Below are positions 37,306 to 46,117 of a stretch of 64,000 bases of DNA, piece by piece. Source of the stretch: Pseudooceanicola marinus (GTDB lineage Bacteria; Pseudomonadota; Alphaproteobacteria; Rhodobacterales; Rhodobacteraceae). Position numbers and translations under genes: made by a program. The notes under the pieces are model-generated. The model was not told the origin of the DNA. It saw nothing but the letters and a program-made list of their open reading frames with translations, and searched no databases. How positions within the stretch are numbered: position 1 is the stretch's first letter; each line of letters opens with the position of its first letter. The DNA lies in contig NZ_PGTC01000010.1 in assembly GCF_002786295.1 (NCBI RefSeq), positions 62,001-126,000 of the forward strand, read 5' to 3'.

Positions 37306-38451
37306 TCAGATGCAGGCCTCGACCACCGGCTTCAGGTTCTCGGCGGTCAGCTGCACCGGGTTGCCGCCGCAGGACGGATCTTCCAGCGCCATCGCAACGA
37401 TGTCGTCGATGCGCGCCGCATCCACGCCGAGCGCCGATAGCTTGCGCGGGATGCCCAGGCGGTCGTTCAGCTTCTGCACGTAGTCGCAGAACCCGTCAAA
37501 TCCGCCCTCGATCCCCAGATAGGGCGCCGCCTCGTCGAAACGGGTGCGGATCAGGTCGGCGTTCAGGTTCAGCACGGCGGGCATGCAGACGGCGTTGGTG
37601 GTGCCGTGGTGCGTGTTGAAGATCGCGCCGACGGGGTGGGAGATCGCATGGATCGCGCCCAGGCCCTTCTGGAAGGCGGTGGCGCCCATCATGGCGGCGG
37701 ACATCATGTTGGCGCGGGCCTCGATATCGGTGCCGTCCTCATAGGCGCGTGGCAGGTAGTCGACGACCAGCCGCATGCCTTCCAGCGCGATGCCCTGGGA
37801 CATCGGGTGGTAGTGCGGGCTGCTGAAGGCCTCCACGCAGTGGGCGAAGGCATCGAGGCCGGTGCCGGCGGTGATGAACTTCGGCATGCCCACGGTCAGT
37901 TCCGGGTCGCAGATGACGACCTGCGGCAGGACCTTGGGGTGGAAGATGATCTTCTTCACGTGGGTCTCGGAGTTGGTGATGACGCTGGCGCGCCCCACCT
38001 CGGATCCGGTCCCGGCAGTGGTCGGCACGGCCACGATGGGCGCGATGCCATCCGGGTCGGCGCGGGTCCACCAGTCGCCGATATCCTCGAAGTCCCAGAC
38101 GGGGCGGGTCTGGCCGGCCATGAAGGCCACCATCTTCGCCAGGTCGAGGCCCGAGCCGCCGCCGAAGGCGATCACGCCGTCATGGCCGCCCTCGCGGTAG
38201 ACCTTCAGGCCTTCTTCCAGGTTCTTTTCGGTCGGGTTGGCATCCACGCCGGAGAACATGGCGCGGCCCAGCCCGCCCGAGACCATCAGGTCCAGCGTGT
38301 TCTGGGTGATGTCCATCTCGGCCAGGCCGCGGTCGGTGACCAGGAGCGGCTTGCGGATGTTGGCCGCGGCGCAGGCCTCGGCGATCTCGGCAATGCGACC
38401 GGCGCCGAAGCGGATCGCGGTCGGGTAGGACCAGTTTCCTGTGAGGGTCAT
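37306..38451 (-). CDS. Iron-containing alcohol dehydrogenase
   Basis: Group III Fe-ADH of 381 residues oxidising an alcohol with NAD+. Motifs: GGGSGLDLAK (NAD site), PTTAGTGSEVGRASVI, and metal ligands in AGTGLDAFAHCVEAF, GAIHAISHPVGA and NTHHGTTNAVC. Last gene of the minus-strand operon, 12 bp after the aldehyde dehydrogenase. In this setting it probably makes the aldehyde used by its neighbour, for example from a gamma-glutamyl amino-alcohol; this is inferred from order only. Confidence 0.92.
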   Translation of the reverse strand: MTLTGNWSYPTAIRFGAGRIAEIAEACAAANIRKPLLVTDRGLAEMDITQNTLDLMVSGGLGRAMFSGVDANPTEKNLEEGLKVYREGGHDGVIAFGGGSGLDLAKMVAFMAGQTRPVWDFEDIGDWWTRADPDGIAPIVAVPTTAGTGSEVGRASVITNSETHVKKIIFHPKVLPQVVICDPELTVGMPKFITAGTGLDAFAHCVEAFSSPHYHPMSQGIALEGMRLVVDYLPRAYEDGTDIEARANMMSAAMMGATAFQKGLGAIHAISHPVGAIFNTHHGTTNAVCMPAVLNLNADLIRTRFDEAAPYLGIEGGFDGFCDYVQKLNDRLGIPRKLSALGVDAARIDDIVAMALEDPSCGGNPVQLTAENLKPVVEACI

Positions 38452-38463
38452 GGCAGGGGTTCC

Positions 38464-39837
38464 TCAGGCTTTGCGGTAATGGTGCGACTTGGGACGGGTC
38501 AGGGCGTGGTAACCCAGGACCGACAGGCCCGCGCCGTGGCCGGTGTTCTTGCACCCCGTCCAGCACAGCGCGGGGTCGAGGTAGTCGCAGCGGTTCATGA
38601 AGACCGTGCCGGTCTCCAGGCGCGGTGCGATGGCGTTCATCGCCTCCACGTCCTTGGTGAAGACAGCCGCGGTCAGCCCGTACTGGCAGTCGTTCATCAG
38701 CGCGATGGCCTCTTCGTCGTCCTTCACCGGCATGATGCCGACCACGGGGCCGAAGCTTTCCTCGCGCATAATCTCCATGTCGTGGGTCACGCCGGTCAGG
38801 ATCTGCGGCGTCAGGTAGGCGGCGCCGTCATCGGCCTCCATCGTCTCGATCAGGGCGGTGGCGCCATTGGCCACGGCATCCTCGATCTGGGCCCGCACGG
38901 TGGCGGCGAAACGCACGTTGGCCATCGGGCCGACGGTGCTGTCCTCGGCCAGCGGGTTGCCGAGCTTCTGGCCCTTCACCCAGGCTACGGCCTTCTCGAC
39001 GAAGGCGTCATACAGGCTTTCGTGCACGTAGATCCGTTCGATCCCGCAGCAGCACTGGCCGGAGTTGAACATGGCGCCATCCATCAGCCCGTCGACGGCC
39101 GCGTCCAGGTCGGCGTCGGCACGGACATAGCCCGGGTCCTTGCCGCCCAGTTCGGTGGCCACCGGCGTGAAGGTGCCCGCCGCGTCGCGTTCCACCGCGC
39201 GACCACCCGCGACCGATCCGGTGAAGTTGACGAAATCGAAGGCGCGGTCGGCCAGCAGGGCCGAGCTGACCTCGTGGCTGAAGACGACGTTCTGGAACAC
39301 GTCCTCGGGCACGCCCGCGGCATGCAGCGCCTCGGCCAGGTGTTCACCCACCTTCAGGGTCTGGGCGGCGTGTTTCAGCACCACGGTGTTGCCGGCGATC
39401 AGCGCGGGGGCCACGGTGTTGATCGCGGTCATGTAGGGGTAGTTCCAGGGGGCGATTACGTAGACGACGCCCTGGGGTTCGCGGGTGATCTTGCGGGTCG
39501 CGGTGTCGCTGTCCTCGATCACCATCGGCGCCAGGGCCTCTTCGGCGATGTCGGCCATGTAGCTGGCGCGTTCGTTGAAGCCACCGAATTCACCGCCGAA
39601 GCGCACGGGGCGGCCCATCTGGTGGGCCAGTTCCTGCGCCATGCGGTCGGTCTGTTCGCCGATGATCGCCACGGCCTTGCGCACCAGCGCCACGCGGTCG
39701 GCAATCGTGCGCGCCGCCCATGCGGGCTGCGCCGCGCGGGCGCGGGCCACGACGTCGCGCGCCTCGGCCTCGGTCAGGTAGTCCCGCGACAGGTACACCG
39801 ACCCGTCGATGGGAGAGATCAGATCCACTTTGCTCAT
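38464..39837 (-). CDS. NAD-dependent aldehyde dehydrogenase
   Basis: ALDH-superfamily enzyme of 457 residues. The general base Glu lies in VATELGGKDPGYV and the nucleophile Cys in NSGQCCCGIER; the Rossmann region includes APWNYPYMTAINTVAPALIAGN and NFTGSVAGG. Three consecutive Cys at the active site are unusual but occur in this family. It starts 2 bp after the glutamine synthetase-like gene and is followed after 12 bp by the Fe-ADH gene. It should turn the aldehyde of the pathway into an acid. Confidence 0.93.
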   Translation of the reverse strand: MSKVDLISPIDGSVYLSRDYLTEAEARDVVARARAAQPAWAARTIADRVALVRKAVAIIGEQTDRMAQELAHQMGRPVRFGGEFGGFNERASYMADIAEEALAPMVIEDSDTATRKITREPQGVVYVIAPWNYPYMTAINTVAPALIAGNTVVLKHAAQTLKVGEHLAEALHAAGVPEDVFQNVVFSHEVSSALLADRAFDFVNFTGSVAGGRAVERDAAGTFTPVATELGGKDPGYVRADADLDAAVDGLMDGAMFNSGQCCCGIERIYVHESLYDAFVEKAVAWVKGQKLGNPLAEDSTVGPMANVRFAATVRAQIEDAVANGATALIETMEADDGAAYLTPQILTGVTHDMEIMREESFGPVVGIMPVKDDEEAIALMNDCQYGLTAAVFTKDVEAMNAIAPRLETGTVFMNRCDYLDPALCWTGCKNTGHGAGLSVLGYHALTRPKSHHYRKA

Positions 39838-39839
39838 AG

Positions 39840-41201
39840 TTACGCTCTTTCGAATCCGCGTTGAATTTCCCAGTCGGTCACGACCGCGTCGTAGGCCTCC
39901 TGCTCCCAGTCGGCGGCGCGGGTGTAATGGTCGATCACCTCGTCGCCGAAGGCCTCGCGCAGGAAGGCCGAATTGGCCAGGGTCTCGCGCGCCGCGCGCA
40001 GGGTCGAGGGGATCTCGGTCACGCTGCCCTGTTCGTAAACGTCGCCATCGGCGGGGGGCGACAGCTCCAGCCCCTCCTCGATGCCCTTGATGCCCGCCGC
40101 CAGCTGCACCGCCATGGCCAGGTAGGGGTTCACGTCCGAGCCGGGAATGCGGCATTCCATCCGCACCGCCTTGGACCCGGCGCCGCACAGGCGGAAGCCC
40201 GCGGTGCGGTTGTCCACCGACCACACGGCCTTGGTGGGGGCAAAGCTGCCCGCCTGGAAGCGTTTGTAGCTGTTGATGTTCTGCGCCAGGAAGAAGGTGT
40301 AGTCCGGCGCGTACTTGATGATACCGGCGCAGTAGCTCTTCATCAGGGCGGACATGCCGAGGCTGTCCTCGGGGTCGTAGAAGGCGCTGTCGTTGCCCTC
40401 CCACAGCGACTGATGCACGTGGGAGGAACTGCCGACCTTGTCGCGGTGCCACTTGGGGATGAAGCTGGCGGCGTGGCCCTTCATCAGCGCGACATCCTTC
40501 ACCACATGCTTGCCCAGCACGTGATAGTCGGCGGCCAGGATGGCCTCGTCATACTTGATGTTCAGCTCTTCTTGGCCGGTTTCTGCCTCGCCCTTGGTGC
40601 ATTCCACCGGCACGCCCATGGCGTAGAGGGCGTTGCGCACCGGGCGCAGGACGACCTCGTCGCGCAGCGACAGTTGCAGGGCGTAGTCCTCGTTGTAGGG
40701 GGTCAGCGTGTCGAGATCCTTGAAGCCCGACTTGCGGATCTCGTCGAAGCTCTTCTCGAAGAGGAAGAATTCCAGTTCCGTCGCCATCTTGGCGGTATAG
40801 CCCATGGCCTGCAGCCGCTTCACCTGGGATTGCAGCATGGCGCGGGGGCTGTGGGGGACGGGGGCGTGGTGGTGGTGATCCAGCACGTCGCACAGGACGA
40901 TCGCCGTGCCCTCCAGCCAGGGGGCGGGGCGCAGCGTCGACAGGTCGGGGCGCATCACGTAGTCGCCGTAGCCGCCGGCCCAGCTGGTCGCGGCGTAGCC
41001 TTCGACCGTGTACATCTCAAGGTCGGTGGCCAGCAGGTAGTTGCAGCAATGGCTTTCTTCCCAGGCGCTATCGACGAAATGCGCCGCGTGAAAGCGTTTG
41101 CCCATCAGGCGGCCCTGCATGTCCACGATACAGGCCAGGACCGTGTCGATCTCGCCCGCGGCCACCTGTTCCTTCAGTTTGTCGAACGTCAGCGCGCCCA
41201 T
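39840..41201 (-). CDS. Glutamine synthetase-like gamma-glutamyl ligase
   Basis: GS-fold ATP ligase of 453 residues. Catalytic features: TELEFFLFE (metal Glu), GQEELNIKYDEAI, SSSHVHQSLWEG (His of the ammonia/ATP site), NSYKRF and RMECRIPGSDVNPYLAMA. Its length and sequence are of the GS-like group that joins glutamate to amines (PuuA, GmaS, IpuC), not of housekeeping GlnA. No adenylylation Tyr motif of GlnA was noticed. The context, with ALDH, ADH and a glutamate-amide hydrolase-like gene, favours an amine or amino-alcohol substrate. Confidence 0.88.
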   Translation of the reverse strand: MGALTFDKLKEQVAAGEIDTVLACIVDMQGRLMGKRFHAAHFVDSAWEESHCCNYLLATDLEMYTVEGYAATSWAGGYGDYVMRPDLSTLRPAPWLEGTAIVLCDVLDHHHHAPVPHSPRAMLQSQVKRLQAMGYTAKMATELEFFLFEKSFDEIRKSGFKDLDTLTPYNEDYALQLSLRDEVVLRPVRNALYAMGVPVECTKGEAETGQEELNIKYDEAILAADYHVLGKHVVKDVALMKGHAASFIPKWHRDKVGSSSHVHQSLWEGNDSAFYDPEDSLGMSALMKSYCAGIIKYAPDYTFFLAQNINSYKRFQAGSFAPTKAVWSVDNRTAGFRLCGAGSKAVRMECRIPGSDVNPYLAMAVQLAAGIKGIEEGLELSPPADGDVYEQGSVTEIPSTLRAARETLANSAFLREAFGDEVIDHYTRAADWEQEAYDAVVTDWEIQRGFERA

Positions 41202-41225
41202 GTCTCATTCCTCCTGACCTGCGGA

Positions 41226-41247
41226 GGGCGGCCCCGAAAGGCCGCCC
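41226..41247 (-). terminator. 8-bp hairpin between dctP and the ligase gene
   Basis: GGGCGGCC (41226-41233) pairs with GGCCGCCC (41240-41247), loop CCGAAA. Without T tract; more likely an mRNA-protecting or partial termination element after the binding-protein gene. Confidence 0.55.
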
Positions 41248-41271
41248 CGTTGTCTTGTTCCGGTGCGGCGA

Positions 41272-42309
41272 TCAGCCGAAGGTGTACGGCGGGCCTGCCT
41301 TCGAGGTCACGTCGTTGTAGTCGCGGAAGATTTGCACCAGCTTGGCGGCCACTTCGCCCTGTTCGGCCATCTCGTCCCAGAAGGTGACGGCGGCCTCTTC
41401 GACCACTTTCCACTCTTCCTGCGGGATCGAGCGCAGCTGCAGCTTGTCGCCCTGGGCGCGCAGACGCGCCTCGCCGCCCCAGTACCACTGGTTGCGGTAG
41501 GTGTGGCTGGCCTCGATCGCCGAGGACACGATGGTCTTCAGGTGATCGGGCAGGTCGGCCCAGCGTTGCTGGTTGACGAAGAACGACCCGATCCAGGCGC
41601 CCGAGATGTTGTTGGTCAGGAAGTAGTCGGTCACGTCGGCCCAGCCCACGGTGTAGTCTTCCGTGATGCCCGACCAGGCCATGCCGTCCAGCTCGCCGGT
41701 CTGCACGGCGACCTGCGCATCCTCGTAGGGGATGTTCATCGGCACGACGCCGAACTGGCTGAGGAACTCACCCGCGGTCGGGAAGGTGTAGAGGCGCAGC
41801 CCCTCCAGGTCCGCCAGCGAGGTGATTTCCTTCTTGGTGTTGAAGTTGCACGGGTCCTGGCCCGCGGCCGACAGCCACTTCACGCCGACCTTGGCGTATT
41901 CCTCGTCCCAGATCTCGGCCAGGCCGTACTGCTGGAACAGCACGGGCACGTCCAGCGCGTGCTTGGTGGCCAGCGGGAAGTAGCCGCCGAACTGGCGCAG
42001 CGGCGTGGGGGAGGCCATGGAGTCGTCGTCCGAGTGGACGCCGTCGATGGTGCCGCGCTGCAGCGCCTGGAACAGCTCGCCCGTGGGGACGATCTGGTCG
42101 GCGTAGTAGAGTTCGATTTCCAGCTCGCCCTGGGCGGCGGCGTTGATCGCGTCGATGGCGGGTTTGGTGACTTCCTGACCCAGGGCCGAGCCAGCGTAGG
42201 TCTGGAACCGCCACTTGATGGCTTCCTGGGCACGCAGAACAGAAGGCGCGGCCAGAGCTGCGGGGGCGGCCATTGCGGCGCCGCGCAGGAAGGAACGTCT
42301 GTTGGTCAT
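41272..42309 (-). CDS. dctP: TRAP transporter substrate-binding protein, DctP family
   Basis: Periplasmic binding protein of 345 residues. The N-terminus MTNRRSFLRGAAMAAPAALAAPSV is a Tat-type signal. DctP features: YAGSALGQEVTKPAIDAINAAAQGELEIELYYADQIVPTGELFQALQRGTIDG, then the ligand-lid region PMNIPYEDAQVAVQTGELDG with MAWSGITEDY. No conserved organic-acid Arg is obvious in the usual place, so a carboxylate ligand is not assured. It lies between hairpins at 41226-41247 and 42341-42358. Partner of the DctQ/DctM genes upstream. Confidence 0.93.
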   Translation of the reverse strand: MTNRRSFLRGAAMAAPAALAAPSVLRAQEAIKWRFQTYAGSALGQEVTKPAIDAINAAAQGELEIELYYADQIVPTGELFQALQRGTIDGVHSDDDSMASPTPLRQFGGYFPLATKHALDVPVLFQQYGLAEIWDEEYAKVGVKWLSAAGQDPCNFNTKKEITSLADLEGLRLYTFPTAGEFLSQFGVVPMNIPYEDAQVAVQTGELDGMAWSGITEDYTVGWADVTDYFLTNNISGAWIGSFFVNQQRWADLPDHLKTIVSSAIEASHTYRNQWYWGGEARLRAQGDKLQLRSIPQEEWKVVEEAAVTFWDEMAEQGEVAAKLVQIFRDYNDVTSKAGPPYTFG

Positions 42310-42340
42310 TTTCGGGTACTCCCTTTGGGGTTTGCGGAAG

Positions 42341-42358
42341 CCCCGCTTGGGCGCGGGG
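42341..42358 (-). terminator. Short hairpin between dctM and dctP
   Basis: CCCCGC (42341-42346) pairs with GCGGGG (42353-42358). A 6-bp stem in the only wide gap among the transporter genes. Could set the ratio of permease to binding-protein message; weak evidence. Confidence 0.4.
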
Positions 42359-42366
42359 TCTGGTGG

Positions 42367-43692
42367 TTATTGGTAGACATAATTCGGCAGCCATGTCGCG
42401 ATCGACGGGAAGGCCATGACGATGGCCAGGGCGATTACCATCACCGTCACGAAGGGCGCGATGGAGCCGTAGATGTCCTTCAGCGTGATCTCCGGCGGCG
42501 CCATGGCACGCATCAGGAACAGGTTATAGCCGAAGGGCGGGGTCATGTAGGCGATCTGGCAGGTGATGGTGTAGAGGACACCGTACCAGACCAGGTCGAA
42601 GCCCAGCTCGCCGACCAGGGGCACGTAGAGGGGCGCCACGATGACCAGCATCGCCGTGTCATCGAGGAAGCTGCCCATCACCAGGAAGCTCAGCTGCATC
42701 AGGATGAGGATCATCCAGGGGCTCAGGCCCAGCTGTTCGGTGAAGAGGAAGCTGATCGCCTTCACCGCGCCCAGCCCATCGAAGACCGCGCCGAAGGCCA
42801 GGGCCGCCAGGATGATCCACATGAACATGCAGGAGATGCCCAGGGTGTTGCGGGTGGCGGTTTCAAAGACTTTCCAGGACATCCGGCCCTTCAGGAGGGC
42901 GGCCAGGAAGGCCGCGATGGCGCCGATGGCCGAGGCTTCGACCAGCGAGGTCCAGCCCTTCACGAAGGGCACCATCATCACCGCGAAGATGCCCACGGGC
43001 AGCAGGCCAGCGCGCAGCAGGCGCAGTTTCTCGGCCCAGGTGACCTCGGCCCGTTCCTCCGCCGACAGGGCGGGGCCAAGTGCCGGGTTCGCCCGGCAGC
43101 GCAGCACGATGTAAAGGATGAAAAGGGCGGCCATCATCAGGCCGGGCAGGATGCCCGCCAGCCACAGCTGGCCCACGGGCTGCCGTGCGATCATGGCGTA
43201 AAGCACCAGCACCACCGAGGGCGGCACCAGGATGCCCAGGGACGACCCCGCCTGGATCACCCCCGTCACCATCTTCTTGTCGTAGCCTCGTTTCAGCAGC
43301 TCCGGCAGGGCGATGGTCGAGCCGATGGCCATGCCCGCGACCGACAGACCGTTCATCGCCGAGACCAGCACCATCAGCCCGATGGTGCCGATGGCCAACC
43401 CGCCCTTCACGCCGCCCATCCAGACGTGGAACATGCGGTAGAGGTCGTCGGCGATCTTCGATTCCGACAGTACGTAGCCCATGAAGACGAACATCGGCAG
43501 CGTCAGCATCGGATACCAGTTCATCAGCTTGATGAGGGCCGAATACCCGATGTCGTAGCCGCCCCGGTCCCCCCAGAGCAGCAGTGCCGCGACCACGGCG
43601 ACGAAGCCGATGGCGCCGAAGACCCGCTGGCCGGTCAGCAGCATCAGCATCATGGTGCTGAACATCAGCAGGGCGATCAGTTCATAGGACAT
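42367..43692 (-). CDS. dctM: TRAP transporter large permease, DctM family
   Basis: Inner-membrane protein of 441 residues with about 12 membrane segments. DctM features: GQRVFGAIGFVAVVAALLLW, LTLPMFVFMGYVLSESKIADDLYR, GGLAIGTIGLMVLVSAMNGLSVAG, ITCQIAYMTPPFGYNLFLMRAMAPPEITLKDIY. It couples substrate entry to sodium. The ATG at 43692 overlaps the dctQ stop by one base (TGATG), so translation is coupled. The 5'-PFGYNLFL segment is strongly conserved in the family. Confidence 0.95.
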   Translation of the reverse strand: MSYELIALLMFSTMMLMLLTGQRVFGAIGFVAVVAALLLWGDRGGYDIGYSALIKLMNWYPMLTLPMFVFMGYVLSESKIADDLYRMFHVWMGGVKGGLAIGTIGLMVLVSAMNGLSVAGMAIGSTIALPELLKRGYDKKMVTGVIQAGSSLGILVPPSVVLVLYAMIARQPVGQLWLAGILPGLMMAALFILYIVLRCRANPALGPALSAEERAEVTWAEKLRLLRAGLLPVGIFAVMMVPFVKGWTSLVEASAIGAIAAFLAALLKGRMSWKVFETATRNTLGISCMFMWIILAALAFGAVFDGLGAVKAISFLFTEQLGLSPWMILILMQLSFLVMGSFLDDTAMLVIVAPLYVPLVGELGFDLVWYGVLYTITCQIAYMTPPFGYNLFLMRAMAPPEITLKDIYGSIAPFVTVMVIALAIVMAFPSIATWLPNYVYQ

Positions 43693-44285
43693 CAGATCTC
43701 TTCCCCGCGCAGACGCAGCAGGTCCTTGAAGAATTCGGAGAGCACCTGAAGCAGCATCAGGAACAGGCCGATGCAGGTGATCAGCTTGATGGGCCACATG
43801 ACGGGCCCCCAGGAAGACCGCGAAGTCTCGATATAGCCCATGACTTCCCCCGCAGCGGCCGGGCCGCCGGTGAAGAAGGCCCCGATCAGCCGCCCGAAGA
43901 AGGGCAGGGGGCCGCCCATGAAATTGCCCAGAGAATAGGCCAGCGAGGCCAGGCCGCCGTAGATCATCACGCCCAGGTAGAAGAGCAGGAAGAAGACGGT
44001 GAAGGCATCCAGCCAGGCCTTCTTGCGGTCGTTCAGCTCGGCATAGATCAGGTCCATGCGCACGTTCGATCCCAGCTGGATCGAGTAGGGGCCGCCGAGG
44101 ATGTAGTAAGCGACCATGACGAACTGGGCCAGTTCCAGCGTCCAGAGCGACGGCAACAGGAAGGTCTTCGAGACCGAGGACCACAGCAGGATGCCCATCA
44201 GGACGAAGAGGCCGAACATGGTGATCCGGCCGATCAGCCAGTTCATCCCGTCGATCCAGCGGATATAGCCGCGCATCAGCCTCAT
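43692..44285 (-). CDS. dctQ: TRAP transporter small permease, DctQ family
   Basis: Inner-membrane protein of 197 residues with four membrane segments. DctQ signs: WIDGMNWLIGRITMFGLFVLMGILLWSSVSKTFL, then LGSNVRMDLIYAELNDRKKAWLDAF (the typical positive loop) and MWPIKLITCIGLFLMLLQVLSEFFKDL. It is longer than the minimal DctQ because of an insert (about residues 120-155). ATG at 44285 overlaps the upstream hydrolase stop by 4 bp. It forms the complex with DctM. Confidence 0.92.
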   Translation of the reverse strand: MRLMRGYIRWIDGMNWLIGRITMFGLFVLMGILLWSSVSKTFLLPSLWTLELAQFVMVAYYILGGPYSIQLGSNVRMDLIYAELNDRKKAWLDAFTVFFLLFYLGVMIYGGLASLAYSLGNFMGGPLPFFGRLIGAFFTGGPAAAGEVMGYIETSRSSWGPVMWPIKLITCIGLFLMLLQVLSEFFKDLLRLRGEEI

Positions 44286-45097
44286 GCGCCCTCCCCCGTG
44301 GGGAGCGCGGCGGAGGCGGGCGCGCAGCCCTCCTCGCCCTCGGTCGCCAGGGCGGCCAGCGACAGGCTCAGCGCGCCGCAGAGCTGTTCGGCGGCCAACG
44401 AGACCTTCTCGGCGTCGGCCAGCAGGTCGTTGCGCACCTCGATCATCACGTTCAGCCGGCCACGCGACACGGCATGTTCGCGCAGGGTGTGGGTGACGCC
44501 GTCGGTGGCGGAATAGGGGGCGTTCAGCTCGGCCTTCAGGGGGCCGGTCCAGTTGTCCATCATCGCCAGCGCCAGCCGGTCGTCGCTGTCGTGCAGCAGG
44601 CCGATCTCGGTCGCACGCGGCTCGCCATGCCACAGGGGCGTGAAGGAATGTACCGTCACCAGGGCGCCGCCGTGGCGGTCCAGCACGCCCGACAGGGCCG
44701 CCTGGAACGGACGGTAGATCTCGCAGACGCGGGCGGCGCGCTGTTCGTCGTTCAGCCCGACGTTGCCGGGCACCTCGACCACCTCGGAGCGTTCCGGCAT
44801 CGCGCCGGGAGACGACGGCGGGCGGTTGCAGTCGTAGACCAGCCGCGACACGCGGGACGCCACCAGGGGCGCGCCCATCCGTTCGGAGATCGCCACGGCC
44901 AGGGCCAGGGCGCCGGGGTCCCAGACGGCGTGGCTCAGCCGATCGGCCTCTGCCAGGCCCAGCCCGTCAAGGGCCGCCGGGATCGCCGCGCTGGCGTGTT
45001 CGCAGGACAGCACCACAGGACCGGTGCCGCCGGGATGGATCACCTCGACGGCAGGTCGCTCGCCGGGTGCCAGAATCTGAGAGTCATTGCCCACCAT
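44282..45097 (-). CDS. N-formylglutamate amidohydrolase-family protein
   Basis: HutG/FGase-family zinc amidohydrolase of 271 residues. Visible: VVLSCEHASAAIPAALDGL (metal His), VYDCNRPPSSPGAMPERSE, VTVHSFTPLWHG, EIGLLHDSDDRLA, and LNVMIEVRNDLL. No other hut gene is near, so histidine breakdown is unlikely; first gene of an operon with a TRAP transporter, GS-like ligase, ALDH and ADH. It may cleave a glutamyl-amide bond at the end of the pathway (inference). ATG at 45097; divergent from the RpiR gene 105 bp away. Confidence 0.85.
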   Translation of the reverse strand: MVGNDSQILAPGERPAVEVIHPGGTGPVVLSCEHASAAIPAALDGLGLAEADRLSHAVWDPGALALAVAISERMGAPLVASRVSRLVYDCNRPPSSPGAMPERSEVVEVPGNVGLNDEQRAARVCEIYRPFQAALSGVLDRHGGALVTVHSFTPLWHGEPRATEIGLLHDSDDRLALAMMDNWTGPLKAELNAPYSATDGVTHTLREHAVSRGRLNVMIEVRNDLLADAEKVSLAAEQLCGALSLSLAALATEGEEGCAPASAALPTGEGA

Positions 45098-45141
45098 GGC
45101 CGCAGAGAAACCGGCCCCGGGCCCGGGTGTCAATTCATTTC

Positions 45142-45157
45142 TGTAGACATGACTACA
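45142..45157. promoter_or_regulatory. Candidate RpiR-family operator, site 1
   Basis: TGTAGACATGACTACA: TGTA-N8-TACA, with the outer CTGTAG/CTACAG arms fully palindromic. Lies between the divergent RpiR-type gene and the catabolic operon, 45 bp from each start or more. Confidence 0.6.
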
Positions 45158-45171
45158 GGTCGCCCCTAGCT

Positions 45172-45187
45172 TGTACATATTGCTACA
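45172..45187. promoter_or_regulatory. Candidate RpiR-family operator, site 2
   Basis: TGTACATATTGCTACA: same TGTA-N8-TACA layout as site 1. The two sites start 30 bp apart, close to three helical turns, a spacing that suits two dimers on one face. This site lies 15 bp before the regulator's GTG start, consistent with autoregulation. Confidence 0.58.
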
Positions 45188-45202
45188 GCGAAGGGCGGGG
45201 CA

Positions 45203-46117
45203 GTGACGAAGGCAGAGGCGGACGCAGTCGGTCAGAAACCGGAGATCACGCGGGCGGAGGACCCGGCCGGGGCCGTCCGCGCTCGGATCGAGGCCGAGGA
45301 CACCCGCCTGACCGCCGCCGAGAAACGTGTTGGCGAGGTGATCCTGAAGGACTACCCCATGGCCGGCATGCAGTCGGTGACGAAGCTCGCGGACCTTGCC
45401 TGTGTCTCCACCCCCACGGTGATCCGCATGGCGCGGAAACTGGGGTTCGAGGGCTTCCCCGAGATGCAGAACGCCCTGCGCGACGAGGTGGCGGATCGGA
45501 TCAAGGCGCCGGCGCTGAAACGCGACGCGCGTGGTGGTGATGGCCATGTGCTGCACCGTTTCGCTGATGCCGTGATCGGCAACCTGACACGCTCGCTCGA
45601 CCGGGTGGATACGGCGACCTTCGATGCGGTGGCGGCGCTCTTGGCGGACAGCAACCGCCCGGCCTACTTCCTGGGCGGACGGATCTCCGGCGCCACGGCC
45701 AGCTATTTCCACAACCACATGCAGATCATCCGGACGGGCATGACCCTGCTGGACCAGGCGCCCAACGTCTGGCCGCACTACCTTCTGGATATGGGGCCGG
45801 CCTCGGTCCTCGTGCTGTTCGACATCCGGCGCTATGAAAAGGACCTGCTGCGCCTGGCGGAACTGGCCGCCGAGCGCGGCGCGACCATTGTGCTGTTCAC
45901 CGACCAGTGGGGATCGCCCGTGGCCCGCGTGGCGCGCCACGTCTTCCACCTGGAGGTCGAGGCGCCGTCGAACTGGGACAGCACCGTTGCCATCATGGCC
46001 GTGGTCGAGGCGCTGATCGCCGAGGTCCAGGCGAAACGCTGGGACGAAAGCCGCGAACGCCTGGATGAACTGGAGGCGATGTTCTCCACCACCCGGGTCT
46101 TCCGCTCCGGGGGCTAG
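45203..46117 (+). CDS. RpiR/MurR-family transcriptional regulator
   Basis: Protein of 304 residues: N-terminal helix-turn-helix (RLTAAEKRVGEVILKDYPMAGMQSVTKLADLACVSTPTVIRMARKLGFEGFPEMQNALR, about residues 33-92) and a C-terminal SIS sugar-isomerase-type ligand domain (FLGGRISGATASYFHNHMQ, then VLFDIRRYEKDLLRLAELAAERGATIVLFTDQ). Usual ligands are phosphosugars, but some RpiR proteins of Rhodobacterales control amine or sulfonate routes. The start is GTG at 45203. Divergent from the operon; probable regulator of it. Confidence 0.92.
   Translation: MTKAEADAVGQKPEITRAEDPAGAVRARIEAEDTRLTAAEKRVGEVILKDYPMAGMQSVTKLADLACVSTPTVIRMARKLGFEGFPEMQNALRDEVADRIKAPALKRDARGGDGHVLHRFADAVIGNLTRSLDRVDTATFDAVAALLADSNRPAYFLGGRISGATASYFHNHMQIIRTGMTLLDQAPNVWPHYLLDMGPASVLVLFDIRRYEKDLLRLAELAAERGATIVLFTDQWGSPVARVARHVFHLEVEAPSNWDSTVAIMAVVEALIAEVQAKRWDESRERLDELEAMFSTTRVFRSGG

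Follow-up and report, generated by a model that had tools for sequence, protein, structure and literature searches.

The 64,000-nucleotide stretch of Pseudooceanicola marinus DNA analyzed here (the window; contig NZ_PGTC01000010.1, positions 62,001 to 126,000) carries between its positions 37306 and 46117 a gene cluster that we read as an operon for the uptake and gamma-glutamylation of ethanolamine, and whose gene content, order, families, key residues and conservation were computed in this analysis. Eight open frames make up the cluster: seven minus-strand genes running from 45097 down to 37306 and a divergent plus-strand gene at 45203-46117 for an RpiR-family regulator (HTH_6 and SIS domains, PF01418 and PF01380). 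In their order of transcription, the minus-strand genes encode an FGase-family hydrolase, the predicted gamma-glutamylglycine amidohydrolase (GGAH; 44282-45097; PF05013, 126 bits); the small and large permeases of a tripartite ATP-independent periplasmic (TRAP) transporter, DctQ (EtoV; 43692-44285; PF04290, 56 bits) and DctM (EtoW; 42367-43692; PF06808, 223 bits); the binding protein DctP (EtoX; 41272-42309; PF03480), with ethanolamine as its predicted ligand; a glutamine synthetase (GS)-like ligase, the putative ethanolamine gamma-glutamylase (ETAGA; 39840-41201; PF00120); an aldehyde dehydrogenase (ALDH), the predicted gamma-glutamylacetaldehyde dehydrogenase (GAADDH; 38464-39837; PF00171, 410 bits); and an iron-dependent alcohol dehydrogenase (Fe-ADH), the predicted gamma-glutamylethanolamide dehydrogenase (GETADH; 37306-38451; PF00465 and PF25137, both over cut-off). 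All eight proteins exceed their Pfam cut-offs, and the open frames and Pfam matches thus bear out the seven-gene operon with divergent regulator that an earlier note on this DNA had described. Co-transcription of the seven genes is likely from their spacing, because two pairs overlap (FGase/DctQ by 4 nucleotides, DctQ/DctM by 1) and two more lie 2 (ligase-ALDH) and 12 (ALDH-Fe-ADH) nucleotides apart; the remaining gaps measure 57 (DctM-DctP) and 70 nucleotides (DctP-ligase). The FGase start is uncertain, 45097 having been chosen (271 amino acids) in the presence of another in-frame ATG at 45178.

The arrangement is not a product of chance. Of 80 named loci, 62 keep all eight genes in unchanged order and orientation; the 80 are the best of at least 573 confirmed relatives, and the set hence leans to close kin. 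Gene by gene, matches were found for RpiR in 72 of these loci (on the opposite strand every time), FGase in 73, the ligase in 76, and ALDH and Fe-ADH in 70 each, some of the misses being due to contig ends. Among 35 other DctP loci from a sample of the class, read with at most 9 kb on each side and less at contig ends, the complete set of eight occurs in this order in five and in rearranged form in one (L037), and 16 have the TRAP genes only. To a Pseudooceanicola marinus locus (L071), all eight proteins are 98 to 99% identical. Two operon copies (L114 and L147) contain the ligase and Fe-ADH with no ALDH match.

The assignment of ethanolamine as the substrate is led by the match of DctP to the PDB entry 4uab, that is, Csal_0678 of Chromohalobacter salexigens with ethanolamine bound (PMC12410723). 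The pair 4uab/4xf5 scores 482 bits (E 1e-143 for 4uab), whereas the remaining PDB chains listed stay at or below 66.1 bits, the next best at E 3e-17. A platform residue, Glu220, has been reported for Csal_0678 (PMC12410723), and the sole glutamate within 10 residues of it in the operon protein is E217, which is likely its counterpart through a numbering offset of three residues. E217 is invariant in 115 of 115 loci, and not one of the 21 further DctPs encoded in the genome has it (by an alignment of distant paralogues); many aromatic residues are likewise invariant among the 115. An arginine that pairs with the ligand carboxylate is present in 96.8% of a Pfam set of TRAP binding proteins, and Csal_0678 lacks it (PMC4646407). 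In this column the operon DctP has Tyr174 and the 115 loci have Tyr (87) or Phe (28), against Arg in 20 of those 21 paralogues. The protein thus combines the marks of an EtoX-type binding protein: nearness to Csal_0678, an acidic platform residue (by the inferred offset) and no TRAP arginine. Ethanolamine has been called a surprising TRAP ligand in view of its positive charge (PMC5812351). Homologues of DctP at E 1e-60 are also present on 17 plasmid records.

The ligase departs from glutamine synthetase in that its Phe320 aligns with Glu327 of that enzyme, and the same phenylalanine is found in the ethanolamine ligase GlnA4. At a threshold of at least 40% identity, which applies to the residue counts for the ligase, ALDH and Fe-ADH (none was set for DctP and FGase), 84 of 86 ligase matches have Phe at this place, and the remaining two do not cover it. 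The closest PDB sequences are 5dm3 (E 1e-201), which we take to be probably the C. salexigens ligase of the ethanolamine pathway, and 11zs (5e-172), followed at a distance by glutamine synthetase (1e-51). In addition, the ligase matches four NCBIfam GS-type models, each of them below cut-off, among them the GlnA model TIGR00653 (238 bits, cut-off 429.15) and type III glutamate-ammonia ligase TIGR03105 (227 bits, cut-off 469.6). Two further, adjacent GS-like ligases are encoded in the genome (L152 and L154; G000:C9:597127-600553), and their catalytic stretches likewise pass none of the NCBIfam GS models that they match.

For the dehydrogenases, Fe-ADH residues D200, H204, H268 and H282, presumably the places of the metal ligands of the family, are invariant in 78 aligned relatives, and ALDH residues C263, C264, E229 and K155, which we take to be catalytic, are invariant in 80. 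The FGase-family protein reaches 23.2 bits against the HutG model TIGR02017, far from the cut-off of 278.75, and its sole PDB match is 2odf (Atu2144; E 7e-65). Four other FGase matches occur in the genome; an FGase paralogue (L004; G000:C11:85458-86072) is 33% identical to the operon protein and has no NCBIfam match at E 1e-10.

The published operon most similar to this locus is that of Phaeobacter sp. MED193 (MED193_10021-10056), which consists of RpiR, GGAH, EtoV, EtoW, EtoX, ETAGA, GAADDH and GETADH (Westermann et al. 2023, PMC10132767), the same eight roles in the same order as here when compared by gene roles rather than by sequences. Five of its proteins are raised in cells grown on phosphorylethanolamine, and its EtoX binds ethanolamine with a dissociation constant of 7.9 uM and does not bind phosphorylethanolamine, phosphocholine or glycerol phosphates (PMC10132767). 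A second system, from the gammaproteobacterium Chromohalobacter salexigens (Vetting et al. 2015, as cited in PMC10132767, PMC6529630, PMC9397018 and PMC4646407), unlike the present host in its affiliation, resembles the locus in its ethanolamine-binding DctP (Csal_0678) and in the same four enzyme families, PF00120, PF00465, PF00171 and PF05013 (review PMC9397018). A third is the GlnA4 cluster of Streptomyces coelicolor, whose gamma-glutamylethanolamide synthetase, active in vitro, also carries Phe in the Glu327 position and for which the same intermediates are proposed (PMC6529630); however, it has a permease instead of a TRAP transporter and, in the figure legend, a short-chain dehydrogenase (PMC6529630), the gene of which is tabulated beside the iron-dependent family elsewhere (PMC9397018), and its regulator is EpuRI, in contrast to RpiR here (PMC9397018). 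The Eut route through the EutBC ammonia-lyase acts on the same substrate by different chemistry. EutBC needs vitamin B12.

Taken together, these data lead us to assign the locus, with a probability of slightly more than nine in ten, to the ethanolamine uptake and gamma-glutamylation operons of the MED193 and C. salexigens kind. It has the gene set and order of an eto/ETAGA-type operon and, as in that type, a ligase without Glu327 of GS. Ethanolamine is most likely the substrate, and it is from the published relatives that we infer substrate, reactions and regulation alike. EtoVWX would import ethanolamine, which the GS-like ligase would join to glutamate at the expense of ATP to yield gamma-glutamylethanolamide; Fe-ADH would oxidize the alcohol of this amide to the aldehyde and ALDH would convert the latter to gamma-glutamylglycine, from which the FGase-type hydrolase would release glycine and recycle glutamate, all under the presumed control of the divergent RpiR. 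The interpretation in the earlier note was essentially right about this chemistry, since an amino-alcohol imported by a TRAP system, glutamylated, oxidized by Fe-ADH and then ALDH, and finally freed of glutamate by a HutG-like protein is what both the ethanolamine pathway in the literature and our sequence comparisons indicate; its claim that the pathway is new, conversely, is not supported, the MED193 operon having been published with the same roles and order (PMC10132767).

The co-occurrence of binding protein and ligase was assessed in 289 genomes of the class, our own included, with p values that treat related genomes as independent. DctP is present in 36 genomes and the ligase in 31, and the two are found together in 18, compared with 3.9 expected (p 4e-11), their genes being neighbors in 11 of the 18. 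EutB, found in 23 of the 289 genomes, is absent from our genome and from every one of the 18 in which DctP and ligase occur together; it is present in five of the 18 DctP genomes without a close ligase (p 0.009).

Several observations nevertheless weigh against our assignment. In 7 of the 18 genomes with both, DctP and ligase are widely separated or sit on different contigs, so that the two are not obligate neighbors, and half of the DctP genomes (18/36) have no ligase at E 1e-110. Over all its genomes, DctP shows no significant link to EutB (p 0.14), one genome (G040) has the ligase and EutB without DctP, and for 13 of the 18 ligase-less DctP genomes EutB is absent and no route was found. The GS Asp50 column of the ligase is variable in relatives (E 36, D 36, other 14) and hence uninformative. 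As to the published counterpart, the MED193 EtoX is raised without phosphate too (fold change 2.14), so that ethanolamine is not its only inducing condition; the pathway is called predicted in a figure legend; and the assays seen in the available parts of the paper concern the binding protein and a phosphatase, with no enzyme assay there for this kind of Fe-ADH, ALDH or FGase (PMC10132767). In the available accounts, the enzyme steps after the ligase remain predicted, and our literature search beyond PMC10132767 turned up no other experimental paper on the TRAP-type operon.

The absence of a close ligase in half of the DctP genomes may mean that the transporter sometimes serves the other ethanolamine route and sometimes another one. 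As a general explanation, the use of EutBC by the ligase-less relatives was discarded, as it fits only five of the 18. At five loci (L043, L045, L061, L118 and L121) the RpiR-FGase-TRAP part is kept and ligase, ALDH and Fe-ADH are not matched in the locus DNA. Three of these loci come from sampled genomes (G041, G168 and G001), in which the idea of a ligase located elsewhere was not borne out, the best-scoring hits being 33, 32 and 31% identical; short partial matches reach 37%.

Other readings of the same genes must be set against ethanolamine. The ligand of the operon DctP is predicted from sequence, and the Vibrio receptor CqsR, the ethanolamine site of which is described as remarkably similar to that of Csal_0678, has been solved also with serinol and L-alaninol (PMC12410723); a substituted amino-alcohol such as isopropanolamine, alaninol, serinol or 3-aminopropanol could thus be the main substrate of the same enzymes, with ethanolamine secondary. 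We regard this as improbable, for the protein is near the one solved with ethanolamine, E217 is invariant together with many aromatic positions, and ethanolamine binding has been measured for a homologue within the same group of bacteria (PMC10132767).

More improbable still is the gamma-glutamylation of a polyamine or another amine along a route like those of PuuA, IpuC or GmaS, even though such routes typically combine a GS-like ligase with an ALDH and with a hydrolase for the glutamyl amide. The ligase scores 206 bits against the gamma-glutamylputrescine synthetase model NF045547, whose cut-off is 650, on which ground the polyamine reading was rejected; moreover, no PuuB-type oxidase is found among the eight genes, the alcohol dehydrogenase implies a hydroxyl group, and the glutamate-methylamine ligase 9qur (3e-38) is far behind the closest structures, 5dm3 and 11zs. 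The family names PF00120 and PF05013 would, taken by themselves, also allow a set of ordinary nitrogen genes, in which a glutamine synthetase and the N-formylglutamate deformylase that serves in histidine breakdown would lie next to a TRAP transporter unconnected with them. This reading, which we hold to be scarcely credible, is refuted as far as family cut-offs go: the operon proteins fall under them, whereas copies that pass are encoded elsewhere in the genome, namely GlnA (L151, TIGR00653), a TIGR03105 ligase (L155, 514 bits) and two of the four other FGase proteins (L002 and L003, over the HutG cut-off), and the eight-gene order of the named loci speaks against it as well.

The control of the ethanolamine operon may be exerted from the region between RpiR and FGase, where a palindrome of the form CTGTAG-N6-CTACAG (CTGTAGACATGACTACAG, 45141-45158), found by a genome pattern scan and intergenic comparison, is a fair candidate for the operator through which RpiR would probably act. 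Its core, TGTAG-N6-CTACA, occurs at this single place in the 4.5 Mb genome, while the backwards control pattern occurs five times per strand. The comparison extended to 82 intergenic regions, those of the 115 loci with RpiR and FGase matched within 1500 bases: the core is perfect in 14, 9 or 10 of its 10 bases are present in 23, and 8 or fewer in 59. About 0.2 regions with 9 or 10 bases would be expected from mononucleotide shuffles (20 rounds), a comparison in which kinship and dinucleotide bias remain. Because it is perfect in only 14 of 82 regions, the core is at best a clade-level form. The intergenic comparison also yields a second, imperfect copy (TTGTACATATTGCTACAG, 45171-45188). It is tempting, though rather doubtful, to suppose that the regulator is dedicated to this pathway alone, binds CTGTAG-N6-CTACAG and senses with its SIS domain a gamma-glutamyl intermediate rather than ethanolamine; if true, this would provide an operator and a signal for an RpiR regulator that is otherwise merely named in the available excerpts of the roseobacter pathway literature.

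Within the 70-nucleotide gap between the DctP and ligase genes, a pattern scan reveals a GC-rich hairpin with 8 G-C pairs (41226-41247), which perhaps sets the mRNA of the binding protein apart from that of the enzymes; terminator-like sites number 6 compared with 3.7 in shuffles, a slight excess. A sigma-70 scan found nothing.

A second locus that combines TRAP genes with a GS-like ligase lies elsewhere in the genome (L179:5599-13734; G000:C10:537000-556000). It comprises an IclR regulator on the minus strand, DctP, DctQ, DctM, a GS-like ligase and a CHMI-family protein, and is followed by Rieske-type oxygenase genes on the opposite strand. Its DctQ and DctM were named by reading the sequence only, and its DctP (L164) keeps the TRAP arginine; the locus could glutamylate another amine.

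The pathway to which we assign the operon is already in the literature, with its gene roles and their order described, and the locus is an ordinary member, to which the present analysis brings small additions: the candidate operator palindrome, the ligase-less relatives and the counts of operon intactness. These results also illustrate that the HutG-like label may conceal a probable gamma-glutamylglycine hydrolase, and biochemical work on the steps after the ligase is still worthwhile. Some 5 to 10% of ocean bacteria are reported to carry the gene for the EtoVWX transporter (PMC10132767), and the route it feeds would convert ethanolamine, which occurs as a headgroup of membrane lipids, to glycine with no need for the EutBC ammonia lyase.

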